This document shows, piece after piece, positions 1,572-58,820 of a stretch of DNA of 64,000 bases; position 1 is the stretch's first letter, and the number at the start of each line of letters is the position of its first letter. Location: NCBI GenBank assembly GCA_902799555.1, contig CADCBB010000011.1:1-64000 (forward strand), given 5' to 3'. The notes beneath the pieces were generated by a model. That model was given only the letters and a program-made list of their open reading frames with translations. It was not told the DNA's origin and did no database searches. The translations under genes and the position numbers were made by a program. This DNA is from an uncultured Bacteroidales bacterium (lineage in GTDB: Bacteria > Bacteroidota > Bacteroidia > Bacteroidales > Paludibacteraceae).

Positions 1572-1611
1572 AAATCTCAAATCTTAAATCTTAAATTTGA
1601 AATTTGAAATC
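1572..1611. repeat. Heptad repeat between fusA and rpsG
   Basis: Degenerate 7-nt tandem units (aaatctc, aaatctt, aaatctt, aaatttg, aaatttg) run up to and into the stop codon of rpsG. The last 19 bases (1593-1611) are identical to 2018-2036 on the other side of rpsG. Confidence 0.85.
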
Positions 1612-2011
1612 AGAAGCGGAAATGAGCGAAAGCTCTGTTCGCTTCTGCCATTCTATGCATATCCTCTTTACGCTTGAACGCACCACCTTGGTTGTTGAAC
1701 GCATCCATGATCTCTGCAGCGAGTTTCTCAGCCATCGAGTGGCCACCGCGCTTGCGTGCGAATGCGATCATGTTCTTCATTGCGATGCTCTCCTTGCGGT
1801 CAGCACGGATCTCGGTCGGCACCTGGAAGGTTGCACCACCGATACGCTTCGATTTAACCTCTACCAACGGGGTGATGTTATCGAGAGCCTGCTTCCAGAT
1901 ATCCAGAGCAGCCTTCTCCTCACCCTTCATTTTGTTCTCTACTACGCCGAGTGCGCTGTAGAACACACCATATGCGGTGTTTTTCTTACCATCGAGCATC
2001 AGGTGGTTCAC
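1610..2011 (-). CDS. rpsG: 30S ribosomal protein S7, N-terminally shortened, GTG start
   Basis: S7 nucleates assembly of the 30S head and contacts the mRNA exit and E site. The visible 133 residues match bacterial S7 from the conserved [13 protein letters not shown] through the C-terminal [14 protein letters not shown]. Bacterial S7 is normally about 156-158 residues, and the usual basic start with its RKAKPKKR-like segment and about 25 residues is absent. The first possible start is a GTG at 2011 coding the V of the normal VNHLM. An in-frame stop lies at 2036-2038, and no other frame upstream to about 2130 encodes the missing part. The lost segment is replaced by a heptad repeat. This may be real truncation, a non-standard start, or an assembly error. 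The family call is certain and the 5' structure is not. Confidence 0.9.
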
Positions 2012-2036
2012 AATTTGAAATTTGAAATTTGAAATC
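2012..2036. repeat. Heptad repeat abutting the rpsG start
   Basis: Units of aaatttg sit directly upstream of the GTG start, where the S7 N-terminus should be encoded. The stretch 2018-2036 is a 19-bp exact direct copy of 1593-1611. Confidence 0.85.
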
Positions 2037-2137
2037 TACGATCCGCTTACTCAACCCTCAACCCATTTCTCGTCCCAAATATGGAACATTTAGTTAATAA
2101 AATTCAGAGCTTAACTGATTTTTGTTGATTGTTTGTT

Positions 2138-2206
2138 GCGACTTTGAAACTTTCTACTTTAAACTTTCGAACTTCTCTCAACTCTCAACTTTCAACCCTC
2201 AACTTA
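2138..2206. repeat. Heptad repeats between rpsG and rpsL
   Basis: Two phrases follow each other: actttga/aactttc-like units, then ctctcaa, ctctcaa, ctttcaa, ccctcaa. They fill the spacer up to the rpsL stop codon. Conserved str operons usually have a short spacer at this junction. Confidence 0.75.
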
Positions 2207-2584: not shown

Positions 2585-2681
2585 TTTGTTGTTTTAATTT
2601 TTGATGTTTGTTAATTAAATATTCCATGCTTTTTCTATTATATACGCGTGCATGTTGGCACGGTTCGGACGAAAAAGCTTG

Positions 2682-2712
2682 CAAAATTACTACTTTTTTT
2701 TGACATGACCAA
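2682..2712 (-). promoter_or_regulatory. Promoter of the str operon
   Basis: On the minus strand TAATTTTG (2689-2682) lies 20 nt downstream of TTG (2712-2710), matching the Bacteroidota sigma-ABfr form TTG-N20-TAnnTTTG. It leaves a leader of about 95 nt before rpsL. Confidence 0.8.
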
Positions 2713-2782
2713 ATATTTTCTAAAGAAAATGCAAAAAATCTTCATTTTTTTTGATTTTGCAATCTTTGAGTAGCAATTTCAC

Positions 2783-3402: not shown

Positions 3403-3418
3403 ACTCGCAACAAACTAT

Positions 3419-6382: not shown

Positions 6383-6402
6383 CACGCAAAATCGTGCAAT
6401 AA

Positions 6403-6432
6403 AGTGAAAAGTGAAAAATAAAAAGTGAAAGG
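6403..6432. repeat. Heptad repeat in the efflux operon leader
   Basis: Units gtgaaaa, gtgaaaa, ataaaaa, gtgaaag lie immediately before the start codon of the adaptor gene. Confidence 0.75.
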
Positions 6433-7514: not shown

Positions 7515-7552
7515 TCGTCATGACGTCATGACGTTATAACGTTATAACGAAA
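7515..7552. repeat. Octamer-like repeat between adaptor and pump genes
   Basis: Overlapping tgacgtca/tgacgtta and cgttataa units form a near-palindromic spacer. A related phrase occurs at 12957-12991. Confidence 0.7.
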
Positions 7553-10500: not shown

Positions 10501-10763
10501 GTCTGCGTCCGATTCTGATGACCGTCATTACGATGATCGTCGGTATGATTCCGCTGGTTATCGCCGGTGGTGCCGGTGCGAACGGAAACCGCGCGCTCGC
10601 CCTCGGTGTTGTAGGCGGTATGAGTATCGGAACGCTGGCACTCGTGTTCGTCGTTCCCGCCTTCTTCATCGTCTTCCAGACGCTGGAGGAGAAGGTGAAA
10701 GGAAAGCCAATAGTCGAAAGTCAAAAGTCAAAAGTCGAAAGCGGAGAGGAGGAAGAGCAATGA
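7557..10763 (+). CDS. RND multidrug efflux pump, HAE1 family (AcrB/MexB type)
   Basis: Inner-membrane proton/drug antiporter of 1068 residues, normal family length. It opens MKNIFIDKNVMAISIAIVIM, the first transmembrane helix, followed by the PVEQYPNIAPP and YTGADANT porter motifs. The helix-4 proton relay is intact as GTVVDDAIVVVEAV, with two adjacent Asp residues near 405. The six-helix repeat architecture with two large periplasmic loops is clear, including a terminal block GTLALVFVVPAFFIVFQTLEE. The last about 19 residues (IVESQKSKVESGEEEEQ) come from a heptad repeat at 10708-10742 rather than from family-conserved sequence. The gene overlaps the channel gene by 4 nt. Confidence 0.96.
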   Translation: MKNIFIDKNVMAISIAIVIMMIGFICLNTLPVEQYPNIAPPTVDVSTSYTGADANTCMKSVIQPLEEQINGVQDMTYMTATASSTGDVSITVYFKQGTDPDLAAVNVQNRVSQAEALLPADVLQTGVTVSKRQNSILQIAGLKSTDGKYDADFISNYIDINVKPRLLRITGVGNVSNLGNTYALRVWMKPDQMAQYGLEPSDISNAISSQSFVTSTGTLGQQSENAYQYPMEYKGTLKSIEEFENIVLRTTEGGNVLYLKDVATVEIGAKSYTMTSNIDGMPGVFYLVNQSPGANATLVNQQIDELYKQLEPTLPAGLEFVTLETSNDFLFAAIHNVVETLVIAILLVILVVYFFLQNWKATLIPSISIIVSLLGTFAIVRMAGFSLNILTLFALVLAIGTVVDDAIVVVEAVMAKLETGKMKGNPKEQAIQATREAMSEVSVAVISCTLVFMAVFIPVTFMGGTSGTFFTQFGITIAGSVGLSCVCALVLCPALCAILMRPNEPGTAQRKGIDYYTKLAYEASYTAILGKYKRAVEKYLKRPWLSFALLGGAIVLMVLFMKILPSGLVPQEDQGVIMCEVLMPEGATLHENTEIMKQVEEKVKAIPELESYGLCSGYGLLSSAGSSYATLIIRLKNWDDRPGFKHYIDRVMYMFYLDCQSIKNAQVMPFQMPQIPGYGTSNGIDLQVQDKSDGDLSDFGNKTNTFLAKLQERPEISNAMSTYSERFPKYKVHVDPIQCERAGTTARAVLNLLGSYCGGSYVGNFNQFSKVYQILLGAAPEYRLDPSSLNNMYIRVKGNKMAPLSQFITLEEVVGSSSTKHFNLYQSISCSVTPGNGYSEAEAHQVIAEVFKETMPTYCTYEYGSMSREVEESAKSNMTVLIYLICIILIYLILGSLYNSWLTPFAVLLSVPFGLMGSFLFSWVGNKIGLPGMENNIYLQTGVIMLIGLLAKTAILITEFAAERRKQGLSIVDAALEACKDRLRPILMTVITMIVGMIPLVIAGGAGANGNRALALGVVGGMSIGTLALVFVVPAFFIVFQTLEEKVKGKPIVESQKSKVESGEEEEQ
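10708..10742. repeat. Heptad repeat inside the RND pump C-terminus
   Basis: Units of gtcaaaa/gtcgaaa, read in frame, give the peptide IVESQKSKVES at the extreme C-terminus of the pump, in the cytoplasmic tail. Confidence 0.75.
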
Positions 10764-12956: not shown

Positions 12957-12991
12957 TCGTTATGACGTCATGACGTTATGACGTAATTACG
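12957..12991. repeat. Repeat phrase between phosphatase and HD genes
   Basis: Alternating tgacgtca and tgacgtta-like units, related to 7515-7552. It fills the 35-nt spacer and reaches the stop codon of the HD gene. Confidence 0.7.
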
Positions 12992-13562: not shown

Positions 13563-13576
13563 TCTTCAATCTTCAA

Positions 13577-14416
13577 TTAATACACCGTTCCTTCGAGCAT
13601 GGCACGGAATTGCGGCATCGGACAATGCGTATCGCGTTCGATCATGATGGTCTTCAGGCCGGCGTAGATCTTGACCTCTTTCATCACGGCTTCCATGTCC
13701 GCATCGGGACCGAAATACTCTGCCGCAAATCCATCCCAGAACTTAGCCGCCGTCGCATTGGACATATGATTCACCTCCATCGTCCAACTCTCATCGTTGA
13801 GGCAGCAGCAGAGGTACACCATGCCGATATCGAACATCGGATAACCGTAACAGAAATCGCCTAAGTCAATGAAATACAGCGTCCGCACGCCATCCTTCTC
13901 GGTGAAGATGCCGTTTCCGAACTGCAGATCCCCGTGGATAGCGGTGTCGGCATCCGGCGCAGCGGCAATGAAATCACGGAGTTTCTGTTTCTGCTCGGGC
14001 GTAAAATCGGGGTTGTTGTCCAGCATCTTATACAGGCGGTCCTTCACATTCTCGAACTGGGTCGTATCCACATGGGTCGCATGCAGTTTCTTGCATAACT
14101 GCGCGAATTCGCGACCGTACTCCGGTGCTTTCTCGGGGTTGTCTCCGCAGGCACGGGAATAGGATTTCTTACCCTCTACCCGACGGAAACGGATACCCAT
14201 TCGTTCGCCGTCGGTAACTAAATCACCGGGTTCAGGTGTCGGGATGCCGAGCGCATATACTTTCTTGGCCAACTCCAATTCCAAAGCGGCTGCCTCGAAA
14301 TTACGGAAGTACATCTTCATCATGATGTTCGGGTCCGTTTTATGGTTGTAACTCGCGCCGTTGGCTCCTTCGCCCGTACGCACATAGTCATTAAGGTCGA
14401 TCTTAATCGGGTTCAT
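13577..14416 (-). CDS. APH-fold phosphotransferase, TIGR02172-like
   Basis: A 279-residue aminoglycoside-phosphotransferase/choline-kinase-fold protein. The catalytic loop IHGDLQFGN (Brenner motif HGDxxxxN, near residue 159) and the metal-binding IDLGDF are both present, as is an N-terminal nucleotide-binding region with the Lys of MMKMYF. It resembles the TIGR02172 family of uncharacterised phosphotransferases. The first codon overlaps the end of the alarmone synthetase gene by 4 nt (ATGA), so the two are translationally coupled. There is no reason to call it antibiotic resistance: the context is regulatory. The substrate is unknown. Confidence 0.8.
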   Translation of the reverse strand: MNPIKIDLNDYVRTGEGANGASYNHKTDPNIMMKMYFRNFEAAALELELAKKVYALGIPTPEPGDLVTDGERMGIRFRRVEGKKSYSRACGDNPEKAPEYGREFAQLCKKLHATHVDTTQFENVKDRLYKMLDNNPDFTPEQKQKLRDFIAAAPDADTAIHGDLQFGNGIFTEKDGVRTLYFIDLGDFCYGYPMFDIGMVYLCCCLNDESWTMEVNHMSNATAAKFWDGFAAEYFGPDADMEAVMKEVKIYAGLKTIMIERDTHCPMPQFRAMLEGTVY

Positions 14417-15452: not shown

Positions 15453-15767
15453 TTATTCGATGGTAAACAGGCTGATGAAGCCGGTCATCATGAATACTTG
15501 GCGGATATCGGCGCTGATATTACGCACGATCACCTTACTGCCGTGAGGGGTGGCTTCCTTACGAATCGAAAGGAAGATACGCAAACCACTCGAAGAGATG
15601 TACTCCAATTCGGTGCAGTCGAGAACGATCTCTTTGTTCTCCGCTTCCAACAAGGGTTTAACATCTTCGGCAGTCTGCACAGCCGCAGCCGTGTCCAAAC
15701 GACCAGAGAACTTGGCAATCACTTGGTTGCCGTTTTCTACAATTTCTGTTTTCATATATTTTACCAA
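15453..15767 (-). CDS. STAS-domain anti-sigma factor antagonist
   Basis: A single STAS domain of 104 residues, like SpoIIAA/RsbV. The segment EYISSSGLRIFLS carries the conserved serine normally phosphorylated by an HATPase anti-sigma kinase and dephosphorylated by a PP2C phosphatase. Both partner domains are in the adjacent upstream gene, so a complete phospho-switch is encoded. An internal ATG at 15755 is an alternative start that removes four residues. No sigma factor gene is adjacent, so the regulated target is unknown. It could be a sigma factor elsewhere or one of the enzymes in this operon. Confidence 0.9.
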   Translation of the reverse strand: MVKYMKTEIVENGNQVIAKFSGRLDTAAAVQTAEDVKPLLEAENKEIVLDCTELEYISSSGLRIFLSIRKEATPHGSKVIVRNISADIRQVFMMTGFISLFTIE

Positions 15768-15791
15768 TTACAAATGACCAATTACAAATTC
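15764..15791. repeat. Heptad repeat between SpoIIE-like and STAS genes
   Basis: Units ccaatta, caaatga, ccaatta, caaattc span the 14-nt gene gap. They include the stop and last codons (VKNL) of the upstream phosphatase gene. Confidence 0.8.
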
Positions 15792-18815: not shown

Positions 18816-19499
18816 ATGAAAACACCCAGAATACACAGAGAAGGACGCGGATTGATCGTGGGTACCGTACTGCTCCTTTTTATCATCAATGTCCCCATTT
18901 ATTTGTTTGTGCAACCGCATTGGATCTTCGCCGTCACGCTGATCCTGACGGCGATGCTGCTGGTCTTCGTCACCTATTTCTTCCGCAACCCTGTGCGTGT
19001 GATCGAGATCGATGATCCGAATTTTATCATCGCGCCGGCAGACGGTCGTGTGGTGGTGGTAGAGCCGACCGAAGAGAACGAGTATTTCCATGAGAAAAAG
19101 CTGCAGGTATCGATCTTCATGTCGCCCTTTAACGTCCATGCCAATTGGTATCCGATCGAAGGCACAGTACTGGTGAGCGAGCATCAGAAAGGCCGTCATC
19201 AAGGCGCTTGGCTGCCTAAGTCCAGTATCGAGAATGAGCGTTCGTTGGTGGTCATCGAGACGCCTAATAAAGTGCAGATTGCCCTTCGTCAGGTAGCCGG
19301 AGCCATGGCTCGTCGTATCGTGACCTATGCTAAACCCGGCCATCAGGCGCACCGGAATACGCACCTCGGATTCATCAAATTAGGTTCGCGCGTGGATATG
19401 TACCTGCCGCTGAACACCGAGATGTTTGTCGAAGTAGGCGAAGCCGTTCGCGGAAATGAGACCATCATCGGTCGTCTTGCAGACGAAATTGAAAATTGA
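18816..19499 (+). CDS. psd: Phosphatidylserine decarboxylase, short form
   Basis: It converts phosphatidylserine to phosphatidylethanolamine at the inner membrane, using a pyruvoyl group made by self-cleavage. The 227-residue protein is the short Psd form common in Bacteroidota. Two N-terminal transmembrane helices (residues 12-50) are followed by APADGRVVVVEP, SIFMSPFNVHANWYP and the cleavage region IKLGSRVDMYLP, whose Gly-Ser supplies the pyruvoyl serine. The usual neighbour pssA is absent. The last residues (DEIEN) are encoded by the start of a heptad repeat. Confidence 0.93.
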   Translation: MKTPRIHREGRGLIVGTVLLLFIINVPIYLFVQPHWIFAVTLILTAMLLVFVTYFFRNPVRVIEIDDPNFIIAPADGRVVVVEPTEENEYFHEKKLQVSIFMSPFNVHANWYPIEGTVLVSEHQKGRHQGAWLPKSSIENERSLVVIETPNKVQIALRQVAGAMARRIVTYAKPGHQAHRNTHLGFIKLGSRVDMYLPLNTEMFVEVGEAVRGNETIIGRLADEIEN

Positions 19500-19516
19500 A
19501 AATTGAAGATTTAAAA
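19487..19516. repeat. Heptad repeat at the psd 3' end
   Basis: gaaaatt-type units begin in the last codons of psd and continue into the spacer before deoC. The same unit occurs at 47799-47823 and 58071-58100. Confidence 0.75.
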
Positions 19517-20406: not shown

Positions 20407-22736
20407 TGAACAAGATTCTATCCAAAAGATTCTTTTCGGACAATGTAGCGGAGCTTGTAGTTGAAGCTCCGCTTATTGCCCGTAGTCGTCGTGCCGGTCA
20501 TTTCGTGATCATCCGCGTAGATGATCATTCGGAGCGTGTGCCCCTAACGATCGCCGACGCAGATATCGAAAAGGGTACGATCACGCTGGTCGTACAACAG
20601 ATCGGTGCCTCGACCCATAAGCTGCTGGCACTCAATCCCGGAGACGCTATCCATGACGTGGTAGGTCCGCTCGGTCGTGCGACCCGTATCGAGAACTACG
20701 GTACGGTCGTTTGTGCCTGCGGTGGTGTCGGTGCAGCACCTATGCTGCCGATCGCCGAAGCCCTCAAGAAAGCCGGCAACAAAGTGATCACGGTCCTGGC
20801 AGCCCGTAACAAAGACCTGCTGATCCTTCAAGAAGAGTTGGCCAAGTGGTCCGATGAGGTCATCATCATGACCGATGATGGTTCAGCGGGTCAACAGGGT
20901 GTGGTCACCGTAGGTGTGGAGCAAGTCATTAACCGCGAGCAGGTCGATAAATGTATCACCATCGGCCCGGCTATCATGATGAAATTCGTCGCCCTCACGA
21001 CCGCCAAGTATAACATTCCTACCGAAGCCAGCCTCAACACGATCATGGTCGATGGTACCGGTATGTGCGGCGCGTGCCGTGTCACCGTAGGCGGTAAGAC
21101 CAAGTTCGTCTGCGTTGATGGCCCGGAGTTCGATGCCCATGCGGTCGATTGGAACGAGATGCTCAGCCGAATGAAAGCTTTCAAAGCCGAAGAGGCAGAA
21201 GCCCTGCGGGCTTATAATGAGCGCTCGCAAAGCGAGCTCAATGATGAAATGAGCGCGGCCAAGCCGCTCAATGATGTGCAAGTAGGCACCGTTGAGCCCT
21301 TTGAGGGCAAGCCAAAAGATCGGGTAGCCATCCCCCGTGTTCAGATGCCTGAACTGCGTCCGGAAGTGCGCGTCAAGAGTCTGCACGAAGAGGTTAACCA
21401 AGGCCTGACATTCGAACAAGCCATCACCGAATCACATCGTTGTCTCAACTGCAAGAACCCGACCTGCGTACAAGGTTGTCCGGTGAATATCAACATCCCG
21501 GGATTCATCAAGACCCTTGAGACGGGCGACGTTCTCGGCGCCGCAGCGGTCATCAAAGAGAGTTCGTCTCTGCCTGCTGTCTGCGGTCGTGTCTGCCCGC
21601 AAGAGAAACAGTGCGAGAGTCAGTGTATCCATCTTAAGATGGGTCATCCCGCTGTAGCGATCGGTTACCTCGAGCGTTTCTGCGCCGACTATGCGAATAG
21701 TCAATCGACCAATAATGACAATCGTCAATCAATCGTAAATCGTCAATCGTCCAATCGTCAATTGAAAATCGCCGTTGTGGGCTCCGGTCCTGCCGGACTG
21801 ACTTTCGCCGGAGATGCCGCCAAATACGGCTACGAGGTGCATGTATTCGAAGCGCTGCACGAGATCGGCGGCGTACTCAAGTACGGCATCCCGGAGTTCC
21901 GTTTGCCGAACCGCATCGTGGACATCGAGATAGATGGTCTGCGTGCGCTTGGCGTACAATTCCACACAGATACCATCATCGGTAAGACGATCACGGTCAA
22001 AGAGCTCGAAGAGCAAGGCTTTAAGGGCATCTTCGTCGGTTCAGGAGCCGGACTACCTCGCTTCATGAACATTCCGGGCGAGAACCTCAACGGTGTCATG
22101 TCGTCCAATGAGTACCTGACCCGCGTGAACCTTATGGACGCGTCCAACCCTGCTACCGACACGCCGATCTTATACGGTAAGAACGTTGCCATCATCGGTG
22201 GCGGTAACACGGCCATGGATGCCGTACGTACCGCTAAGCGCCTCGGTGCAGAGCGTGCGATGATCATCTACCGCCGTTCGGAAGACGAGATGCCGGCACG
22301 TATCGAAGAGGTGCATCACGCCAAACAGGAAGGTATCGAGTTCATGACGCTCCACAACCCGATTGAGTACCACGCGGACGAGAACGGACGTGTCAACGAA
22401 GCGGTGCTGCAAGTGATGGAACTCGGCGAACCCGACGAGTCAGGTCGTCGCAGTCCGGTACCGGTAGAAGGCAAGACGGTCACGATCCCGGTTGACCTCG
22501 TCATTGTGGCCGTAGGCGTATCCCCTAACCCACTAATCCCCTCATCGGTAGCCGGATTAGAGATCAGCAAGAAAGGTACGATCGTCGTCAACGAAGGCAT
22601 GCAATCGGCCATCCCGACCATCTTCGCCGGAGGCGATATCGTTCGCGGCGGTGCAACCGTCATTTTGGCCATGTCCGACGGCCGCAAAGCCGCTAAAGCA
22701 ATGCATGAGTACTTAAGTGCTTCGCACGTTAAATAG
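20406..22736 (+). CDS. Fused ferredoxin-NADP reductase alpha and glutamate synthase-like subunit (NfnAB-like)
   Basis: A 776-residue fusion. Residues 1-280 match the FAD/NAD(P)-binding sulfide dehydrogenase/NfnA subunit, with GVGAAPMLPIAEALK and an iron-sulfur motif GTGMCGACRV near 217-226. Residues 320-776 match the glutamate-synthase small-subunit/NfnB family, with two cysteine clusters (CLNCKNPTCVQGCP, then CGRVCPQEKQCESQC), Rossmann motifs GSGPAGLTFAGDAA and GGGNTAMDAVRTAKR, and FAGGDIVRGG near the end. Members transfer electrons between NAD(H), NADPH and ferredoxin, sometimes by bifurcation; which reaction applies here is not shown. Between the cluster domain and the Rossmann domain, residues 431-453 (ending NRQSIVNRQSSNRQ) come from a heptad repeat. 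The C-terminal SASHVK is also repeat-derived. Confidence 0.88.
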   Translation: MNKILSKRFFSDNVAELVVEAPLIARSRRAGHFVIIRVDDHSERVPLTIADADIEKGTITLVVQQIGASTHKLLALNPGDAIHDVVGPLGRATRIENYGTVVCACGGVGAAPMLPIAEALKKAGNKVITVLAARNKDLLILQEELAKWSDEVIIMTDDGSAGQQGVVTVGVEQVINREQVDKCITIGPAIMMKFVALTTAKYNIPTEASLNTIMVDGTGMCGACRVTVGGKTKFVCVDGPEFDAHAVDWNEMLSRMKAFKAEEAEALRAYNERSQSELNDEMSAAKPLNDVQVGTVEPFEGKPKDRVAIPRVQMPELRPEVRVKSLHEEVNQGLTFEQAITESHRCLNCKNPTCVQGCPVNINIPGFIKTLETGDVLGAAAVIKESSSLPAVCGRVCPQEKQCESQCIHLKMGHPAVAIGYLERFCADYANSQSTNNDNRQSIVNRQSSNRQLKIAVVGSGPAGLTFAGDAAKYGYEVHVFEALHEIGGVLKYGIPEFRLPNRIVDIEIDGLRALGVQFHTDTIIGKTITVKELEEQGFKGIFVGSGAGLPRFMNIPGENLNGVMSSNEYLTRVNLMDASNPATDTPILYGKNVAIIGGGNTAMDAVRTAKRLGAERAMIIYRRSEDEMPARIEEVHHAKQEGIEFMTLHNPIEYHADENGRVNEAVLQVMELGEPDESGRRSPVPVEGKTVTIPVDLVIVAVGVSPNPLIPSSVAGLEISKKGTIVVNEGMQSAIPTIFAGGDIVRGGATVILAMSDGRKAAKAMHEYLSASHVK
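21696..21765. repeat. In-frame heptad repeat inside the NfnAB-like gene
   Basis: Units of aatcgtc and variants encode NRQSIVNRQSSNRQ at the domain border. The same 14-residue peptide, in the same frame, is encoded at 45430-45470 in prmC. Confidence 0.9.
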
Positions 22737-22790
22737 TTAAATGGTTAAAATGGTTTTGATTGCATCAAAACGTTAAACGGTTAGTTGAAA
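22716..22790. repeat. Repeat spanning the NfnAB stop and the dacB start
   Basis: The first 37 bases (22716-22752) match 27246-27282 with only three differences: a GTGCTTCGCAC hairpin followed by gttaaa units. The gttaaa phrase resumes just before the TTG start of dacB. Confidence 0.8.
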
Positions 22791-45114: not shown

Positions 45115-45966
45115 GTGAAAGAACTAATCAACCATATTACCGCCCAATTGGCGACCGTTTATCCCGAAGACGAAGCGCAAGCTTTGGCTTGGTGGATCAT
45201 GGAAGAAGAAACCGGTCTTTCCCGCTCACAAATGCTAACAGGGTGCAAAGGTACTACAAATTTTTCAAATTTGCAAGCAAAGATAGAAAGAATCTTGCAT
45301 TTTGAGCCGATTCAGTATATTTTCGGGCACACTTTATGGAACGGTCTCGATCTGAAAGTCACTCCCGCGACCCTTATCCCTCGTCCCGAAACGGCCGAGT
45401 TAGTGGAAACAATCGTCAATAAGTTCAATCGTCAATCAATTGTAAATCGTCAATCGTCAAATCGTCAATTCCGCGTGCTCGACATCGGTACCGGCTCGGG
45501 TTGTATCGCGATCGCTCTCAAGAAAGCGCATCCCGAATGGCAAGTGACGGGAATCGATATTTCGGAAGAGGCGATAGAGGTTGCGAAAGAGAATGCGAAG
45601 AGAAATGGTATAGAGGTGGAGTTCTTGGTGGCTGATATATTCAATCTTCAATCTCCAATCTTCAATCTCCAATACGATATCATCGTCTCCAATCCGCCTT
45701 ATATCTGCGAAAGCGAGAAAGCAGACATGCGCCCCAACGTACTGAACTACGAACCGGCCACTGCTCTTTTTGTGCCGGACAATGATCCGTTGAAGTTCTA
45801 TCGTCGTATAGCAGAATTGAAATTAGGTAAGCATCTCTTCTTCGAGATCAATGAAGCCTATCCCGACGAACTATCCGCCATGCTGAGCGAATTAGGTTAT
45901 TCCTCTATCCAAATAACGAATGACATCTATGGTAAACCGCGAATTATCGAAGCGCGAATGGCTTGA
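45115..45966 (+). CDS. prmC: Peptide chain release factor glutamine methyltransferase, GTG start
   Basis: It methylates the GGQ glutamine of release factors RF1/RF2. The 283-residue protein has an N-terminal helical domain, LDIGTGSGCIAIALKKAHP (SAM-binding) and the catalytic NPPY motif IIVSNPPYICESE. The GTG at 45115 is needed to keep the N-terminal domain. Two repeat inserts interrupt it: residues about 101-118 (NRQSIVNRQSSNRQ, before the methyltransferase fold) and residues 176-186 (IFNLQSPIFNLQYD). Near residue 45 a segment TGCKGTTNFSNLQAK is encoded by an antisense promoter. It overlaps recX by 47 nt. Confidence 0.93.
   Translation: MKELINHITAQLATVYPEDEAQALAWWIMEEETGLSRSQMLTGCKGTTNFSNLQAKIERILHFEPIQYIFGHTLWNGLDLKVTPATLIPRPETAELVETIVNKFNRQSIVNRQSSNRQFRVLDIGTGSGCIAIALKKAHPEWQVTGIDISEEAIEVAKENAKRNGIEVEFLVADIFNLQSPIFNLQYDIIVSNPPYICESEKADMRPNVLNYEPATALFVPDNDPLKFYRRIAELKLGKHLFFEINEAYPDELSAMLSELGYSSIQITNDIYGKPRIIEARMA
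45246..45276 (-). promoter_or_regulatory. Putative ribD promoter inside prmC
   Basis: Minus strand TACCTTTG (45253-45246), 20-nt spacer, TTG (45276-45274). It points toward ribD, whose ATG is about 150 nt downstream. It lies wholly within prmC coding sequence. Confidence 0.7.
45413..45470. repeat. In-frame heptad repeat in prmC (first)
   Basis: Units of aatcgtc and variants encode FNRQSIVNRQSSNRQ. The DNA is nearly identical to 21721-21765 in the NfnAB-like gene. Confidence 0.9.
45640..45674. repeat. In-frame heptad repeat in prmC (second)
   Basis: Alternating caatctt and caatctc units encode FNLQSPIFNLQ between the acidic SAM loop and the NPPY motif. Confidence 0.85.
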
Positions 45967-46967: not shown

Positions 46968-47819
46968 ATGAATATTCTTGTAACCGGTGCAAACGGACAG
47001 TTGGGCAATGAGATGCGGGTATTGAGTGAGACGCATCCCAAACATACCTATTTCTTCACGGATATCGCGGAGTTGGACATTACCGACAAAGCGGCGGTAT
47101 CGGCTTTTGTGGCGGACAACGCCATTGATTTAATTGTCAATTGTGCCGCCTATACAAACGTCGATAAGGCCGAGGAAGATGAGGCGACGGCGATGAAGAT
47201 CAATGCCGATGCCGTAGCGATCTTAGGTGGTCAAGGGGTGAAGGTGATCCATGTGAGCACCGACTACGTTTTCTCGGGCGACGAGCATGTGCCGTGCAAG
47301 GAGTCCGATCCGGTGGCTCCGCGTACTGCGTACGGGCGCACGAAATACGAAGGAGAGAAACGGCTCTTGGCCGCATGTCCGGAGGCGGTGATCCTACGTA
47401 CCGCGTGGCTCTATTCGGAATATGGCAATAATTTCGTGAAGACGATGATCCGCTTGGGCCATGAGAAAGAGAAACTCGGCGTCGTGTTCGACCAGATCGG
47501 TACACCGACTTATGCAGCCGACTTGGCAGCGGCTATCTTCACCGTGATCGAGACGCCATGCTGGCATCCGGGCATCTATCATTTTACGAATGAAGGTGTC
47601 TGCTCGTGGTTCGATTTCACGATCGCTATCCATGAATTGGCAGGCATCCAAAACTGCAAGGTTTCCCCGATTTTATCGGAAGAATATCAATACAAGACAC
47701 CCCGTCCCCACTATAGCGTACTCGATAAGTCGAAATTCAAAAAGACGTTCGGGGTCGAGATCCCGTATTGGATGGATGGATTGAAGCGATGCGTGGGCAA
47801 ATTGAAAATTGAAAATTGA
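46968..47819 (+). CDS. rfbD: dTDP-4-dehydrorhamnose reductase
   Basis: Final step of dTDP-L-rhamnose synthesis. The 283-residue SDR enzyme has TGANGQLGNEM at the NAD(P) site, STDYVFSG, and YGRTKYEGEK with the Tyr-x3-Lys pair. The C-terminal KLKIEN comes from the heptad repeat that follows. rfbA (thymidylyltransferase) is not seen in the window. Confidence 0.95.
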   Translation: MNILVTGANGQLGNEMRVLSETHPKHTYFFTDIAELDITDKAAVSAFVADNAIDLIVNCAAYTNVDKAEEDEATAMKINADAVAILGGQGVKVIHVSTDYVFSGDEHVPCKESDPVAPRTAYGRTKYEGEKRLLAACPEAVILRTAWLYSEYGNNFVKTMIRLGHEKEKLGVVFDQIGTPTYAADLAAAIFTVIETPCWHPGIYHFTNEGVCSWFDFTIAIHELAGIQNCKVSPILSEEYQYKTPRPHYSVLDKSKFKKTFGVEIPYWMDGLKRCVGKLKIEN

Positions 47820-47823
47820 AGAT
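47799..47823. repeat. Heptad repeat between rfbD and tRNA-Arg
   Basis: gaaaatt units cover the rfbD stop codon and run to the base before the tRNA. Confidence 0.8.
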
Positions 47824-47824
47824 T

Positions 47825-47896
47825 GACTTGCTAGTTCAATGGATAGAACAGGGCTCTCCTAAAGCTCAGATCCGGGTTCGATTCCCGGGCGAGTCA
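47825..47896 (+). tRNA. tRNA-Arg (anticodon CCT)
   Basis: The acceptor GACTTGC pairs with GCGAGTC, the anticodon arm is GGGCT-CTCCTAA-AGCTC, and the T arm is CCGGGTTCGATTCCCGG. The discriminator is A, and CCA is not encoded. It lies 1-2 nt after the repeat, with no separate promoter seen, so it may be co-transcribed with rfbCD. Confidence 0.94.
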
Positions 47897-47906: not shown

Positions 47907-48617
47907 ATGAAAGAAGTATTAGATTTTCTCGCAGAGTTGGCGGTGAACAATAACCGCGAGTGGTTTGCCGAACACAAGGATTGGTACCAACGATGCTATG
48001 TCAAGTTCGTGGATTTCAGCGAACAATACATCCTGCGTCTATCAGAGATAGATCCCACCTTAAAAGGGCTGCAAGCGAAAGATTGTATCTGGCGTATCTA
48101 CCGCGATGTACGGTTCTCGAAAAACAAAGACCCGTATAAGAACTGGATGGGTGTTTTTCCGGCAACAGGCGTTCCTGGGCAACCGAAGACATGGGGTCGC
48201 AAATCGCTTCGCGGCGGTTATTACATGCATTTCCAACCCGGACAGTGTATGTTCGCCGGCGGAATCTGGGAGCCGAGCAAAGAATTGCTGACGGCCTTGC
48301 GCAAAGAGGTGGAAGCCAACTACGAGGAAGTAGAAGCCATCATGGCGAAGCCGAGTTGGAAGAAGTATTTTGGCAATGATTTCGATTCCTATTGGGGTGT
48401 ATTGAAGAAAGTGCCGGCGGGTTTTGATCCGGATTTTGTGCATCCCGATTGGTTGAAGCATAAGGACTATACCTTCTCTACCCCGCTTACCGATGCGCAA
48501 GTCAGTGCGCCCGATTTTCTCGATCATCTTGTGGAGATAGCAAAGGCCGCCAAGCCGATGAATGATTTCCTCAACTACACCTTTGAGGAATACGGCGAGT
48601 TTCCGGATCGATGCTAA
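47907..48617 (+). CDS. DUF2461 domain protein
   Basis: A 236-residue protein opening MKEVLDFLAELAVNNNREWF, typical of DUF2461, with FSKNKDPYKNWMGVFPA and GGYYMHFQPGQCMFAGGIW at the conserved core (landmarks). The biochemical function of the family is not established as far as I know. It lies 10 nt after tRNA-Arg and 21 nt before the RNase H gene. Confidence 0.88.
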   Translation: MKEVLDFLAELAVNNNREWFAEHKDWYQRCYVKFVDFSEQYILRLSEIDPTLKGLQAKDCIWRIYRDVRFSKNKDPYKNWMGVFPATGVPGQPKTWGRKSLRGGYYMHFQPGQCMFAGGIWEPSKELLTALRKEVEANYEEVEAIMAKPSWKKYFGNDFDSYWGVLKKVPAGFDPDFVHPDWLKHKDYTFSTPLTDAQVSAPDFLDHLVEIAKAAKPMNDFLNYTFEEYGEFPDRC

Positions 48618-48651
48618 ATGACCAATGAGCAATGACCAATGAGCAATAATA
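48617..48651. repeat. Heptad repeat containing the RNase H start codon
   Basis: Alternating aatgacc and aatgagc units; the ATG of the next gene (48639) is one of the ATGs of the array, and several in-phase or out-of-phase ATGs precede it. Confidence 0.85.
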
Positions 48652-49058
48652 AACCCATATTACCTGCGCTGGCCGTTGATGCGGCATGTAGCGGCAACCC
48701 CGGCGTGATGGAGTTTCGCGGGGTGATTGCCGATACCGGTACCGAGGTTTTCCACCGCGGCCCCTTCAAGCAGGGCACGAATAACATCGGTGAGTTCCTC
48801 GCGCTGGTCCTTGGTCTGGCATATATCAAGAAATACAACTTGCCGTGGGTGATTTATACGGATAGCGTGACCGCACTCGCATGGGTGCGCGCCAAACGAT
48901 GCAAGACGAAGATGGAGTGGACGATGGAGAGTCAGGACCTCTTTTTGATGGTTCGAAAAGCAGAGATGTGGCTCCATGACAACACCTGGAACACCCCCAT
49001 CTATAAGTGGGACACGAAGGCTTGGGGCGAGATTCCTGCTGATTTTGGTCGAAAATGA
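48639..49058 (+). CDS. Ribonuclease HI-like protein
   Basis: It cleaves the RNA strand of RNA-DNA hybrids. The 139-residue protein keeps the acidic set: Asp in VDAACSGNPG, Glu in NNIGEFLALVLGL, Asp in YTDSVTALAWVR, and Asp in WDTKAWGEIP. It lacks the N-terminal hybrid-binding domain found in many Bacteroidales RNases HI. The first residues MSNNKP come from the repeat, so the true start could be slightly different. Confidence 0.85.
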   Translation: MSNNKPILPALAVDAACSGNPGVMEFRGVIADTGTEVFHRGPFKQGTNNIGEFLALVLGLAYIKKYNLPWVIYTDSVTALAWVRAKRCKTKMEWTMESQDLFLMVRKAEMWLHDNTWNTPIYKWDTKAWGEIPADFGRK

Positions 49059-53668: not shown

Positions 53669-53715
53669 TTTTATTTTTGATTTATGATTTCAAATTTATG
53701 ATTTAGTACTTGCGA
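53669..53715. repeat. Heptad repeat upstream of greA
   Basis: Units such as tttttga, tttatga, tttcaaa, tttatga and tttagta. It includes the stop codon of the small upstream ORF. Confidence 0.7.
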
Positions 53716-53946: not shown

Positions 53947-55284
53947 TTATTTTGTGCATTTTTCCACGATTTCACCCCGTAATGTAGCAGCAGAGGCTTC
54001 TGAAACACGCACATAGACGATATCTCCCACTTTCTGGTCCGTACGTGGGAAAACGACCGTTTTGTACTGCGGTGTGCGGCCGTACATGTCATCGTGGCTG
54101 CGTTTGGAGAAACCTTCTACCAGCACCTCCACTGTCTTTCCTATCTCGCGTTGGTTGGACTCAAGGGATAGTTGGGTTTGAAGGGCGATGATCTCATTGA
54201 GTCGGCGCACTTTCTCCTCTTCGGGAATGTTATCCGGCAGATGTTTGGAGGCATAGGTGCCCGGACGTTCCGAGTACTTGAACATAAACGCAGAATCGAA
54301 TCCCACCTCCCGCATGAGGCTAAGCGTCTCGGAATGATCTTCCAACGTCTCGTCATGGAAACCGCATAAGATATCCGTACTGATGGCCGCATCGGGCAGG
54401 ATACGACGTATCGCTGCCACGCGTTCCAGATACCACTCCCGCGTATATTTGCGATTCATGAGTTTGAGCACATGGTTCGATCCCGACTGCACCGCCAGAT
54501 GGATAAAATTACAGAGGTTATCATGCCGACTGATAGCCTCTAAGGTCTTGTCGGACATATCCTTGGGGTGTGAGGTGGTGAAACGGATACGCATATCCGG
54601 TACAGCCTCTGCTACCCGTTCCAGCAAATCAGCAAAGTCAATATCCTCATACTTATACGAATTGACGTTCTGTCCGAGGAGCGTCACCTCTTTATAACCG
54701 CGCGCGCGTAGATCCCGCACTTCTGCGAGGATAGATTCCACATCCCGGCTGCGCTCACGTCCACGGGTATAAGGTACAACGCAGTAAGCACAAAAATTAT
54801 TACATCCGCGCATGATAGACACAAACCCGCTGATAGAGCGTCCGATACGCGCCGGAATGATATGGCGGTAGGTCTCTGTTGTACTCAGTTGTACGTTCAT
54901 GGCCTTATGTCCCTGTTCGCATTGTGCCAGCAGGTTCGGGATATCGAGGTACGCATCAGGACCGGCTACGAAATCTACGCCAAACGTATCAATCAACTCC
55001 TGCCCCATACGCTCCGCCATACAGCCGATGACACCGATGATCGGCTTTCCACTTTCCACTTTCCACTTTCCACCTTTAATATGCGCCTTCAGCTCTCGCA
55101 GACGCGAACCGACTTTCTGCTCGGCATTGTCACGGATAGAACAGGTGTTAAGCAGGATGATATCCGCATCCTCCCAACGCTCGGTCAACTCGGCATCAGC
55201 AGTCTGCAAAATAGCCGCCACCACCTCGCTATCCGCCACATTCATTTGGCATCCGTAGGTCTCAATATAGAATTTTTTACTCAT
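53947..55284 (-). CDS. miaB: tRNA-2-methylthio-N6-dimethylallyladenosine synthase (MiaB)
   Basis: A radical SAM methylthiotransferase that modifies A37 in tRNAs reading UNN codons. From the ATG at 55284 (MSKKFYIETYGCQMNVADSE) the 445-residue protein has the N-terminal cluster site (ETYGCQMN, LNTCSIRDNA, GVIGCMAER), the radical SAM site RGCNNFCAYCVVPYTRGRERSR, and a C-terminal TRAM domain (VEGFSKR...). A longer upstream frame exists but runs through the antisense of tRNA-Pro. Residues about 70-80 (GKWKVESGK) are encoded by a heptad repeat and lie just before the third cluster cysteine. Confidence 0.93.
   Translation of the reverse strand: MSKKFYIETYGCQMNVADSEVVAAILQTADAELTERWEDADIILLNTCSIRDNAEQKVGSRLRELKAHIKGGKWKVESGKPIIGVIGCMAERMGQELIDTFGVDFVAGPDAYLDIPNLLAQCEQGHKAMNVQLSTTETYRHIIPARIGRSISGFVSIMRGCNNFCAYCVVPYTRGRERSRDVESILAEVRDLRARGYKEVTLLGQNVNSYKYEDIDFADLLERVAEAVPDMRIRFTTSHPKDMSDKTLEAISRHDNLCNFIHLAVQSGSNHVLKLMNRKYTREWYLERVAAIRRILPDAAISTDILCGFHDETLEDHSETLSLMREVGFDSAFMFKYSERPGTYASKHLPDNIPEEEKVRRLNEIIALQTQLSLESNQREIGKTVEVLVEGFSKRSHDDMYGRTPQYKTVVFPRTDQKVGDIVYVRVSEASAATLRGEIVEKCTK
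55044..55075. repeat. In-frame heptad repeat in miaB
   Basis: Four tttccac units encode GGKWKVESGK. The same unit and peptide core GKWKVES occur in tsaB at 58243-58272. Confidence 0.88.
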
Positions 55285-55520: not shown

Positions 55521-58151
55521 TTATAACAGCGGCAGGTTCACTTCGGTGACTGCCTTTATTTGTATCTGCTCGAGTCGAGTTTGCATCTCGGCATTCTTCT
55601 GCATCAGGTCAATCCACCATTCAGCTTCATCCAGGTCGGCGAATCCGCTGACACGCAGCGCGCAAGTGGTTTTATATACCGGCATCTTCTGCAGGTCAAA
55701 ATCACGGATGAGGAATTGGCTGAAGTTAAACAGCGCCACTTCGTAGAGCAACTCATTCAGGGCTTGCTCATCTTCTTGCGGCAATATCAGCAGCACGACA
55801 GATGGTTGCTTACGGTCTTCGCTCCACTCCATCTGCATCTTCTGCTCTTCTTCGTCCGCTGTATCTTGGGTCTTACCACGCAAATCTTCCAGACTACCGG
55901 TCGCTCCGCCTTTCTGGCTCTCCATACCCTGCCCCATCATCGCAAGCATCTCTTTAGCCATCGTCCCCAGTTCGGTCGTACCATAGTCACGCACCATCTC
56001 CTGCAGTGCCTCCACAAACGCCTCCTGTCCTTCGGTACGTGCCACCGACACCGCATTGAGGAAGAGGAAACGGGGAGCGAGCGACCAATGGTCATTGGTC
56101 ATTTGAGATTTGTGATTTTTGATTTGTGATTTCACCTCAGTAAAGCGACCATGCTTGTAAGCATCGTACGTCAACGCATAGAGCGAGTCTTGCGTCGCTA
56201 ACATATGCCGCATGCGGGCGATATAGTCCGCATCGTGCCGCAAGGCCTGCAAGCGCATATCTTCGTAGATATCGGTCATGCAAGGATGGTTCGGGAAACG
56301 ACGCTCCAGTTCGTGCAGCGTCTCCTCGGCCTGCAGCGTATCATTGAGTCGGTCGCGATAGAGGAAATAGAGAGCTACCATCCCATCCCGCCATAAACTG
56401 TCGCTCAGCGCATAATCCTGATCGGTACGCGGTATCTGCTGCAGGTAATACTCCGGTTTATGGATATCGGTCTCCAGTTTAGAAGCAGATGCAGCGGTAG
56501 AGTCTTGTCCTATAGAATCAGACAAAGCCTCATTCTCCTCATCCGTTAATCCGTTCGTTCCATCATCCGCTATCAGCACCTGTTTGCTTTGGCGTCTCCA
56601 GTTATCTTCAAGCGGTCGGTTACCCCATTTGCGCCGCCATTCCTGCTGCCCCTGCTTGACGAGTTGCGGGTTGTAGAAATACCATTCGCCCTTCTGTCCG
56701 CCGCTACCGCCGAGCATATTGGCAGTATTGACACTTCGCAGTCCTTCATCGCCATGCGCCATTTCGCGGGCAGCCTCAGCCTGACGGATAGAATCTTGTT
56801 TCTCCGCTTCGATGAGCTCAGCGATGATCTTTTCCACTACGGCACGTTGCTCCTCTTCGCTCATATGGCCGAGGCGTTGGAGCGAGTCTTGAAGTTGGAC
56901 TTGGTTATATGATACAATCAGTTCATCCAGCACTTCGGATCGCTTAAGCATCCGCGCATACTCCTTATGTTCGGCCGTAAGAATCGTCACCGCTTCACGG
57001 TAACAAGGTTGGGCCTTGACGTAGTTATGCTGCTCAAAATAGATATCGCCTGCACGCATGAGGATAGCGGCTTTCACTGTACCGGCCTGCGTTGATTCGG
57101 CGATCGCTTTCTCGTACATCTCCAACGCCTTAACGGTATCTTTATACTGCAGATGGATATTTCCCATCGTGCCGTAGATCTGATCGAGCCGGTCTTTGAA
57201 CTTCGTCTGTTTGGTCATCGCGCGTAGTTGACGCAGGCTGTTCTTCCCACCCAGTTCCGCCATGCGGATACGGGCATTGAACTCCATCTCGTTGGGCGGC
57301 GCCATGCGTACGACATGCTTATAGGCTTGAAGGGCTTCGTCCTTGTTGCCCTCTTTCTCATATAGTTGTCCCAGCACGTAAGCAAACCGCGGACGGTAGA
57401 TCTTACGTTTCTCATACGGCAGGGCTATCTTCACGAACGGCAGGGCCTCGCGGTAATGCTCACCCTTGAGCAACACATCCGCTTTGACAGCCGAATAGAG
57501 TTTGGCATGCTTCTTACTGAGCGCATCGATCTGCACGCGGTTCAGCGCATCCTCCGCCTCGTACTGCCATCCCATCTCGGCATACGCACGCGCGATCCAT
57601 AGACGGCATTGCGCGATGATGTCAGGATCATTCTGATAGTGATTAATGATATAATTGAAGGTACTGACCGCACCTAAGAAATCGCCTTTATGGAACTCTG
57701 CCTGACCGAGTCGAAGCCATGCCAGATGCATCTCGGCATTGAACTCCTCGGATTGGAGCCATAACTTATATTTGGGATCGTTCGCCTTTTTCGGGTCACG
57801 TTTGGGTTTCGCTTTGATAGAATGCAACTTGATACACTTGCGGCATTTCTCGATGGTCTTATCCATCTGAGAACTCGCCGCCTCAGCTGCTTGATGGTTG
57901 GATACCGGGTAGAGATACAGCACCGTGCTGTAATCATCCGTATTGGCATCCCGTATGGCTTTGAGACCTTCTTCATAGGCCGCATTGCCATTAAAAAGAA
58001 TATTATATTTGACTTTCGTCTGATGGAACGACCGAGTCGCCCACGTATTTTTCTGCGTGGAGCAAGATATAATTGAAAATTGAAAATTGAAAATTGAAAG
58101 GATTATCAACCCTCTCACTATACCTCTATATGTCTTTCTTTCACTTTTCAC
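55521..58151 (-). CDS. PorW/SprE-like type IX secretion TPR lipoprotein, GTG start
   Basis: An essential lipoprotein of type IX secretion in relatives, linking the outer-membrane complex. The 876-residue protein has a lipobox ISC (SIISCSTQKNTW, Cys about 30) and many TPR-like helices (e.g. AYAEMGWQYEAEDALNRVQ, FAYVLGQLYEKEGNKDEALQAYKHVVRM as landmarks), then a SprE-type middle region (KGEWYFYNPQLVKQGQQEWRRKWG). Residues about 17-27 of the signal peptide (SIFNFQFSII) are encoded by a repeat, and the GTG start itself lies in another. A third array encodes residues 672-689. The C-terminus is short-repeat-rich. A large type IX cargo protein is three genes away. Confidence 0.82.
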   Translation of the reverse strand: MKSERKTYRGIVRGLIILSIFNFQFSIISCSTQKNTWATRSFHQTKVKYNILFNGNAAYEEGLKAIRDANTDDYSTVLYLYPVSNHQAAEAASSQMDKTIEKCRKCIKLHSIKAKPKRDPKKANDPKYKLWLQSEEFNAEMHLAWLRLGQAEFHKGDFLGAVSTFNYIINHYQNDPDIIAQCRLWIARAYAEMGWQYEAEDALNRVQIDALSKKHAKLYSAVKADVLLKGEHYREALPFVKIALPYEKRKIYRPRFAYVLGQLYEKEGNKDEALQAYKHVVRMAPPNEMEFNARIRMAELGGKNSLRQLRAMTKQTKFKDRLDQIYGTMGNIHLQYKDTVKALEMYEKAIAESTQAGTVKAAILMRAGDIYFEQHNYVKAQPCYREAVTILTAEHKEYARMLKRSEVLDELIVSYNQVQLQDSLQRLGHMSEEEQRAVVEKIIAELIEAEKQDSIRQAEAAREMAHGDEGLRSVNTANMLGGSGGQKGEWYFYNPQLVKQGQQEWRRKWGNRPLEDNWRRQSKQVLIADDGTNGLTDEENEALSDSIGQDSTAASASKLETDIHKPEYYLQQIPRTDQDYALSDSLWRDGMVALYFLYRDRLNDTLQAEETLHELERRFPNHPCMTDIYEDMRLQALRHDADYIARMRHMLATQDSLYALTYDAYKHGRFTEVKSQIKNHKSQMTNDHWSLAPRFLFLNAVSVARTEGQEAFVEALQEMVRDYGTTELGTMAKEMLAMMGQGMESQKGGATGSLEDLRGKTQDTADEEEQKMQMEWSEDRKQPSVVLLILPQEDEQALNELLYEVALFNFSQFLIRDFDLQKMPVYKTTCALRVSGFADLDEAEWWIDLMQKNAEMQTRLEQIQIKAVTEVNLPLL
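56085..56135. repeat. In-frame heptad repeats inside porW
   Basis: A caaatca/caaatct array joined to a tgaccaatgacc phrase encodes SQIKNHKSQMTNDH. Confidence 0.8.
58071..58100. repeat. Heptad repeat forming the porW signal core
   Basis: Four gaaaatt units (minus-strand reading) encode LSIFNFQFSII, most of the hydrophobic segment of the lipoprotein signal. Confidence 0.85.
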
Positions 58152-58163
58152 TTTTCTCCTTTC
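58133..58163. repeat. Repeat holding the porW start codon
   Basis: gtgaaaa/gtgaaag units on the minus strand supply the GTG start (58151) and the residues MKSERK. The same phrase occurs at 6403-6432. Confidence 0.75.
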
Positions 58164-58166
58164 ACT

Positions 58167-58820
58167 TTATTTGAGTCCTTTGACATGACTCTGTGCGGCA
58201 ATAAATTCTTTGAGATAGAAAGGCTCGTAATATGCAAGATCTACACTTTCCACTTTCCACTTTCCACTTTCTGCCAACGCTCCTACATACTGCGCTTCGG
58301 GTACGATATCGGGAATATAATGCCAGTTGGGTTTGGTAAGCACCGGTTGGCATTTGGCAGCTCCGTCACCGAAGTAATAGACATTCTCATCTCCGGCATA
58401 CAGGCTATCTTCATTCTCTACAACTACGGCTTTGGTTTCCCCATCCATCATCGTATAGACCTCCATGCGACGCGCGTCTATCATAGGAATCAAGCGGCCT
58501 TGCTTAACACCGGATGCCTCGCAGAGTACCTCCAATGTCGGTACGGGGATGAGGGGCACATTAAGGCCGTAGCAGAGGCCTTTGGCAGTAGAGGCACCTA
58601 TACGGAGGCCCGTATAACTGCCCGGTCCTTCGGAGAGCGCTACTGCATCGATAGACATATGCTGCTCCCGCGCGAACGAGAGCAGTTCCTCTATATACAT
58701 CGGCAGCAACCGCGCATGGTTACTTCCTTCGTAGTTAATACACTGCTTGATCAGCGAACCGTCTTTACAGACGGCCGCTGAACAAACAGATGTACTGGTT
58801 TCGATACATAGTATCGTCAT
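58167..58820 (-). CDS. tsaB: tRNA threonylcarbamoyladenosine biosynthesis protein TsaB
   Basis: TsaB is the scaffold partner of TsaD in making t6A37 of tRNA. The 217-residue protein opens MTILCIETSTSVCSAAVCKD (ASKHA phosphate-1-like) and has NHARLLP and SEGPGSYTGLRIGASTAKG. Residues about 183-192 (ESGKWKVES) are repeat-encoded near the C-terminus, where the family is variable. It precedes porW by 15 nt and is followed on its 5' side by an outer-membrane protein gene. Confidence 0.93.
   Translation of the reverse strand: MTILCIETSTSVCSAAVCKDGSLIKQCINYEGSNHARLLPMYIEELLSFAREQHMSIDAVALSEGPGSYTGLRIGASTAKGLCYGLNVPLIPVPTLEVLCEASGVKQGRLIPMIDARRMEVYTMMDGETKAVVVENEDSLYAGDENVYYFGDGAAKCQPVLTKPNWHYIPDIVPEAQYVGALAESGKWKVESVDLAYYEPFYLKEFIAAQSHVKGLK
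58243..58272. repeat. In-frame heptad repeat in tsaB
   Basis: Three to four tttccac units encode ESGKWKVES, shared with miaB. Confidence 0.88.

Follow-up and report, generated by a model that had tools for sequence, protein, structure and literature searches.

Heptamer tandem arrays at gene junctions and protein loops of a Paludibacteraceae genome, and the turnover of their units among related genomes

The DNA considered here is a stretch of 64,000 nt from an uncultured Bacteroidales bacterium of the Paludibacteraceae (positions 1 to 64,000 of contig CADCBB010000011.1, assembly GCA_902799555.1), referred to below as the window. It is contig C11 of a genome of 2.34 Mb, which lies on 82 contigs and is 86% complete, and it holds, among others, genes for an AcrB-family protein, a PrmC-type methyltransferase, a MiaB-type methylthiotransferase, a TPR protein and TsaB (the last assigned by a TsaD domain in Pfam together with TsaB matches in the PDB). 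Between and within these genes lie short tandem arrays, most often with a period of 7 nt. In a search with Tandem Repeats Finder (TRF; minimum score 30), period 7 accounted for 25 of the 90 rows in the window, whereas 20 order-4 Markov shuffles had on average 0.7 such rows and never more than 3; periods 8, 9 and 11 gave 9, 7 and 9 rows against shuffle means of 1.2, 0.95 and 1.45. Likewise, there were 8 exact lag-7 runs of at least 13, and none in 50 shuffles. The first-pass annotation, which had counted about 25 arrays from the letters alone, agrees with this, and the units that it named (aaatttg, gaaaatt, aatcgtc and others) are present.

The excess of 7-nt arrays is confirmed for the window and for a sample of 462,104 bases of its own genome (the window and 20 further stretches). 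With a lag-7 array defined by a score of at least 13 at a mismatch penalty of 3 (some counts use 10, 11 or 12 instead), this sample has 53 arrays (52 without one run of N) against an expected 1.5 (the mean of 4 shuffles, which itself counts runs of N), and the enrichment over shuffled DNA that had been suspected from the window is borne out. The next periods are 14 (32 arrays), 8 (13) and 16 (9), and the median array has 4.3 units or about 30 nt. Relatives were found by scanning a species-genome collection with the TPR protein of the window, which gave 75 loci (from the best 80 of 99 matches). They come from metagenome-assembled genomes (MAGs) of Bacteroidales; Paludibacteraceae stands in many of the titles, and ruminants are a frequent source. 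The nearest locus, L023, is 96% identical to the window in the TPR protein, and the genome that carries it, G001, is 91% identical to the window. A sample of 480 kb of G001 has 68 period-7 arrays, followed by periods 14 (42) and 11 (14); similarly, the 1.31 Mb of the 68 loci L024-L091 have 116, followed by period 14 (58) and periods 11 and 21 (21 each). Twelve other Bacteroidales families, with one genome each (8-44 kb, 310 kb in total), gave 2 period-7 arrays. In 118 kb from six loci that are more distant, four of which carry Prevotella or Prevotellaceae in their titles, there were 11, and the trait therefore reaches beyond the genus. The genome thus belongs with the heptamer-rich genomes that carry long simple sequence repeats (SSRs), i.e., with units of 5-11 nt, 7 nt being the most abundant, and with arrays longer than in a random model. 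An assembly artefact is unlikely, because like arrays occur in many independent MAGs and their median length of about 30 nt is far below that of a sequencing read.

On gene calls from a simple purpose-written script, arrays (7-nt unless stated otherwise) in the left part of the window lie at a gene end (AAATCTT/AAATTTG, 1572..1615), in an intergenic space (AATTTGA, 2012..2035), at 2175..2204 (CTCTCAA) and directly upstream of a start codon (AAAGTGA, 6401..6430), the last at a site that is array-free in G001. Three 8-nt arrays have 7-nt arrays in their place in G001, namely CGTCATGA/ACGTTATA at a stop-start junction (7516..7549; AATTGAA in G001), CGTTATGA at the junction 12958..12984 (TTTCAAT in G001) and GTTAAATG at the junction 22728..22755. 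Two copies of TCTTCAA at 13563..13577 correspond to a TTTTTAA array in G001, an AAATTGA array that spans a stop codon (19486..19516, plus strand) to AATTGTA-type units, and a second AAATTGA array, which runs from a gene end to tRNA-Arg (47799..47826, plus strand), to AATTAAA. Alternating 14-nt higher-order arrays are also present; for example, CCAATTA/CAAATGA at 15761..15790 is nearly the same in G001, and AATGACC/AATGAGC (48617..48647, plus strand) bridges a stop and a start codon. A degenerate ATTTATG array lies at the junction 53673..53705, and TTTCACT units at 58139..58168 stand between the TPR gene and tsaB.

Within genes, the 3' end of the AcrB-family gene 7557-10763 carries AAAGTCR units (10703..10741, plus strand). 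Gene 20406-22736 holds a 30-nt hairpin repeat (21216..21276, plus strand), in whose slot G001 has an 11-nt CCGACGGTCAA array, and a copy of the dispersed AATCGTC element (21702..21771, plus strand). Gene 27521-28477, which has no Pfam match, holds a 9-nt array TCAGATTAT (27871..27899, minus strand), with a 16-nt array CTGTAAGACCGCTNCG in the G001 slot, and ATTGTAC units (27925..27955, minus strand). The PrmC-type gene has a second AATCGTC element (CAATCGT; 45410..45470, plus strand), replaced by ATTTCAA in G001, and a 7/14-nt array CAATCTT/CAATCTC (45640..45673, plus strand) that is nearly the same there. On the minus strand, CTTTCCA fills a MiaB loop slot (55045..55073), ATTTGTG (56101..56132; nearly the same in G001) and AATTGAA (58071..58099, N-terminal end) lie in the TPR gene, and CACTTTC fills the last TsaB loop slot (58244..58271), where L023 of G001 has TGATGTC. 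The arrays at 27925, 58071 and 58139 (the last over the compared part) are identical in G001, and others are replaced.

Of 60 arrays with a score of at least 12, 18 are no more than 10 nt away from a predicted gene boundary (4.3 would be expected), in line with the first-pass annotation, which had them often abutting start or stop codons. Its further statement that several lie inside genes also stands: 33 of the 60 are wholly within predicted genes, including the Pfam-matched MiaB-type, TsaB, PrmC-type, AcrB and TPR genes. Of 85 in-gene arrays in orthologues of the window's proteins, 81 have arrays of three or more species no further than 6 residues away, as compared to a mean of 47.6 and a maximum of 56 when arrays are placed at random in the same proteins. 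TsaB has four such slots, with arrays in 14, 7, 6 and 21 of 67 species, and MiaB has two, with arrays in 16 and 8 of 56 species, in both cases with many different units. For example, the MiaB loop before IIGVIGCM carries arrays in 16 of 56 species, 13 with period 7 and 3 with period 16 (a separate reading of MiaB dropped 6 of 56 matches), and the TsaB loop before AYYEP carries a lag-7 array of score at least 10 in 20 of 63 sequences, the window included (5 of 67 matches without anchors were dropped). In an alignment of 24 TsaB sequences each slot is either empty or filled with differing text. In the predicted structure of TsaB, all four slots fall either in turns that link secondary-structure elements or at the ends of such elements; the mean predicted local distance difference test score is 76, with low values at the second slot and over the last 25 residues.

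The units themselves number 26-27 distinct AT-rich sequences in each of the two genome samples, with a mean GC content of 0.28 in the own genome and 0.18 in G001. Alignment of unit rotations and strands by expectation-maximisation gave a common grammar, T-Y-W-Y-M-M-A or its complement, with a score of 3.82, whereas none of 15 phase-permuted controls scored above 2.67. A strict form of it (three keto letters, then four purine letters) fits 47% of the own units against 16% with letters shuffled within units, and 20% against 12% in the relatives. Each AATCGTC array is a copy of the same dispersed element, which is about 62 bp long and for which the 462 kb sample gave 19 alignments (a count that includes the query and two pairs that overlap). 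By eye, many copies have its ATCGT words at spacings of about 11, 7, 7 and 8 nt, which vary by one base. When DNA of gene 20406-22736 was compared with its own genome, 20 of 24 matches fell on this element (40 of 75 candidates scored), and whole-genome matches in G001 fell on it in 28 of 31 cases (40 candidates scored). Its copies end in direct repeats, as aligned by eye, and the heptamer arrays are likewise direct repeats. An orientation bias of the in-gene arrays was considered and dropped, as both strand orientations relative to the coding sense are used (by eye).

Distant arrays of one genome share units more often than arrays of different genomes do. Among same-genome array pairs more than 400 nt apart, 46 of 190 differ by at most one base, against 8.9% in 2000 permutations (maximum 16.8%). 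Without loci L092-L097 the count is 37 of 171 pairs (permutation mean 15.7, maximum 33), and for pairs more than 4 kb apart it is 27 of 107 (permutation maximum 20); own-genome pairs less than 5 kb apart are within one base in 24% of cases (55 pairs). Unit use also differs between the own genome and G001, with a total variation of 0.611 against a permutation maximum of 0.550. For example, AAAAATT forms 1 array in the own sample and 17 in G001, and AAATCGT forms 6 and 1. Longer families, for which identity by chance is negligible, recur at unrelated places too, an 11-nt family at 10 sites, a 16-nt family at 9 and two 15-nt families at 10 and 9. Five species have the 11-nt unit in their TsaB loop, and G001 has it in the slot of gene 20406-22736; a scan for it that allowed two mismatches per unit gave 20 sites, some of which resemble chance matches. 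The 16-nt unit, which six of the scanned species have in the MiaB loop and G001 has in the slot of gene 27521-28477, contains the hairpin-like GCGNAGC, and GCGAAGC is an unusually stable DNA mini-hairpin. The first-pass annotation took the units to be unrelated, which does not hold in view of the common grammar, the genome-specific use and the families at several places; its suggestion that the arrays arose by one kind of process, and not from a single transposed sequence, is supported. At a more distant Bacteroidales locus (L092:15304-16390), four TTGCAAA-type arrays lie within 1.1 kb.

Comparison of close relatives shows that the content of the arrays does change. A period-7 or -8 array (score at least 10 on at least one side) is found in 13 of the 33 length-variable islands between the window and G001, and in 14 of 44 such islands in seven closer pairs. 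In some pairs that are 94-98% identical, the 40-nt flanks of a changed island are 98.8-100% identical. In L050/L053, which are 98.8% identical, arrays have changed at 15091 and 18294 between 40-nt flanks that are 100% and 98.8% identical; around 15091 the flank identities are 100%, 99.4% and 99.5% against the pair's 98.8%. Likewise, an array faces no array in L026/L027 at 17796 and in L047/L052 at 13059 (40-nt flanks 98.8% each), and an 8-nt array faces a 7-nt array in L028/L062 (97.1%) at 13737, with flanks of 98.8% and then 95.0%. Length differences within arrays are 14 and 7 nt in L026/L027, and the array at 53680 is 14 nt longer in the window than in L023. In 27 pairs, six length events were strictly clean (20-199 nt on one side and no more than 3 nt on the other); one of them is an array, with 6 nt of end homology. 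Two near-clean array differences between the window and G001, at 31191 and 15452, show no visible target duplication. The clean filled and empty sites, usually with a target duplication, that mark miniature inverted-repeat transposable elements (MITEs) or Rickettsia palindromes are not the pattern of the arrays in these comparisons. Because strictly clean presence and absence is rare, the usual event, or the sum of events, is replacement of a tract. Orthologous sites in 19 pairs, read in both directions, gave 330 array readings, of which 241 without an alignable partner were dropped, mostly on account of the joined G001 contig, whose length far exceeds that of its partner. The 89 alignable readings comprise 35 with the same unit, 2 identical, 13 with another 7-nt array, 7 with an 8- or 11-nt array and 32 with no array. 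At these 32 array-less sites the unit is not clearly present, the longest match being 5.03 on average against 4.70 (sd 0.18, maximum 5.29).

Other differences were noted beside the arrays. In G001, two inverted heptamer arrays flank about 75 nt at L133:11021-11150; the window lacks this block, which measures about 150 nt in all, and has a gap of 19-26 nt there. A block of 152 nt with 23 nt of end homology and hairpins, at a junction after the TPR gene (L027:12649-12800), is absent in L026, and blocks similar to it differ in L066, L028 and L071. At 48596-48698 the AATGACC array of the window stands opposite some 5.2 kb of G001 that contain a tRNA-like sequence, instead of which the window has tRNA-Arg at 47825. 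A link between arrays and kilobase differences from G001 was looked for at W17824 and W48596 and was not adopted; an array stands only at W48596, on the window side. The large minus-strand gene 60239-63976 contains 2.2 copies of a 150-nt unit (61083-61415, 92% match), and the window/G001 alignment breaks in this region.

The reading preferred here, although tentatively, is that slots are filled anew, time and again, with short units out of a stock specific to the genome, by template switching at microhomology, and are then altered by slippage. Repair or replication synthesis at a slot would switch, by microhomology, to an array elsewhere in the same genome, and a few units would be copied in while the former content of the slot is displaced. 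The units would be drawn from a genome-specific stock, as the unit statistics suggest, and therefore distant slots of one genome would share units while sister species differ. Slippage would then change the length of an array in steps of 7 or 14 nt, of which a few cases are seen; a loop of 7 nt is too large for efficient repair by MutS. Within genes, the copies that are seen to survive all have a stop-free frame, and most of them lie in a small number of tolerant loops. Rather than being functional, the arrays are probably selfish or close to neutral.

Several observations weigh against refilling from such a stock. Whole tracts copied from donors should sometimes bring donor flanks with them, and these are hardly ever seen: in the 8 nt beyond the array (left/right), same-unit pairs share 2.23/2.35 matches and different-unit pairs 2.12/2.04 in the own genome (69 and 1701 pairs), and 2.15/2.14 and 2.16/2.17 in G001 (233 and 2252 pairs), and one AAATCGT pair shares 12 nt of flank. 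The sharing of units is modest in the own genome alone, where 16% of cross-stretch pairs are within one base against 11% with other genomes, and the samples of the own genome and G001 are mostly non-orthologous parts; a genome-specific mutational bias could be an alternative source of it. The search for unit traces at array-less sites is a weak test (about 1.8 sd), and one site has an 11-nt match. In two of the seven closer pairs, L056/L066 and L032/L038, none of 10 length-variable islands has a clear 7- or 8-nt array. The clustering in slots is partly inheritance, as related species can share one old array, and its counts can enter one array under two periods. Around tsaB, the flanks in L050/L053 and L028/L062 are below the pair average, and some array changes may therefore be imported.

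Purely local replication slippage, in which whatever heptamer stands at a tolerated site would be duplicated and then expanded, the polymerase geometry favouring 7 nt, is possible though rather unlikely as the whole explanation. The dominance of period 7, the 7- and 14-nt length differences, the alternating 14-nt arrays and the same-unit arrays without common flanks speak for it, as does the L047/L052 island at 15436, where the L052 array repeats, by eye, the sequence at its own stop codon. Slippage accounts for the length changes and the 7-nt step, but not for units common to distant slots or for 11-, 15- and 16-nt families at unrelated places, and it sits poorly with the lack of a clear unit trace at array-less sites and with the common anatomy of the AATCGTC element. 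That anatomy, the dispersed families, the in-frame presence in conserved proteins and the hairpin-like units of the 16-nt family would suit a mobile family, akin to MITEs or Rickettsia palindromes and moved by a transposase in trans. Transposition accounts for the dispersal, but not for replacement without clean junctions; with one array among the six strictly clean events, no visible target duplication at 31191 and 15452, and Y1 transposase matches that are no stronger within the genus, such a family is unlikely. Y1 transposases, found in 17 of 31 genomes (15 over the cut-off), have stronger matches outside the genus and were rejected as candidates.

It is also conceivable, though improbable, that a trans-acting writer, i.e., a genome-specific template or enzyme, fills breaks at permissive slots by polymerising units of 7, 8, 11, 15 or 16 nt, roughly as telomerase adds its repeats. 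It would fit because units are shared without flanks, replacement prevails over clean insertion and the units have a grammar, and sister species would differ because the template of the writer differs; no candidate enzyme for it was found. Reverse transcriptases (RTs) were rejected: they were found in 11 of 31 genomes, and 13 of the 18 other genomes of the same genus gave no match. In genome G000, two RT domains lie in neighbouring open frames (C16 24629-26673), an arrangement which we take to be reminiscent of two-RT defence systems. A role as signals for translation or transcription, quite improbable in our judgement, draws on the enrichment at gene boundaries and on the same proposal for TAACTGA in the accessible part of a study on Beggiatoaceae (PMC4679880); it has against it the arrays within genes, the use of both orientations and the junctions at which units differ between sister species. 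Least of all is it expected that array alleles were imported from other species by homologous recombination through conserved flanks, which the low flank identities around tsaB would favour. The flanks are near or above the pair average at 15091 and 18294 in L050/L053, at 17796 in L026/L027 and at 13059 in L047/L052, and import would leave both the origin of the arrays and the sharing of units among unlinked slots unexplained. Neither end joining dependent on Ku nor a loss of mismatch repair explains the arrays, because Ku was not found in any of 31 genomes (with a positive Bacillus subtilis control) and a MutS domain is present in 30 of the 31, the sole miss being a genome that is 54% complete.

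An excess of heptamers in scattered bacterial genomes and the idea of slippage go back to Mrazek (2007), as cited in the accessible parts of PMC4679880 and PMC4692102, in which the slippage origin is still a hypothesis and cyanobacteria, Xanthomonas, Nostoc, Beggiatoaceae and a few Bacteroidetes are named as heptamer-rich. The likeness in style to cyanobacterial heptamers which the first-pass annotation pointed out is therefore a fair one. As far as these sources go, the long SSRs of the Mrazek type share the dominance of period 7 and the scattered distribution, whereas the present arrays add several families, in-frame protein slots, genome-specific units and the change of whole arrays between sister species. 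The repeats GGGAATC/GGGANTN of Xanthomonas and GGGGA(C/T)T of Nostoc have 2-26 units (mostly four in Xanthomonas) and vary in sequence and length at the same intergenic places among close species, yet they are described in the accessible text as one G-rich, quadruplex-capable unit type (PMC4692102), in contrast to 26-27 AT-rich units with about half of the arrays in genes. The TAACTGA repeats of Beggiatoaceae, Cyanobacteria and five Bacteroidetes are likewise arrays of heptamers close to start codons, and some Bacteroidetes have direct repeats of other heptamers alongside, but they are one unit, related heptamers being rarely repeated in the main genome studied there (PMC4679880, in the part available). 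The first-pass annotation knew of no named equivalent in Bacteroidota, and this has to be amended accordingly. Neither TAACTGA nor a GGGA-type unit (GGGANTN/GGGGAYT) occurs in the unit lists of the own and G001 samples.

Similarly, the tandem repeats of Borgs evolve fast, are A-rich, lie both between and in open reading frames and have a protein hotspot; going by the accessible part of PMC9879509, their units are 18-36 nt, nearly all multiples of 3 in open reading frames and essentially unique to a region, whereas the present units are 7 nt and shared among regions. Rickettsia palindromic elements also lie in frame in conserved proteins, as the arrays do in TsaB, MiaB, the PrmC-type protein and AcrB, and between genes, but are stem-loops of 105-146 bp in the accessible text (PMC2229807) rather than tandem direct repeats. 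The accessible part of PMC4060949 holds no heptamer data for Bacteroidetes, and a literature search, with its matches partly covered and few subscription journals among them, gave nothing on such arrays in this lineage. The combination of many units, common protein slots, genome-specific units and array change between sister species was not seen in the literature searched.

The lineage offers dozens of public species, with pairs that are 92-98% identical, so that the same slot can be read in many states, and slippage, copying and template-driven writing can therefore be told apart. The loops of conserved proteins are repeatedly overwritten by repeat DNA, which makes them a possible source of new protein sequence.
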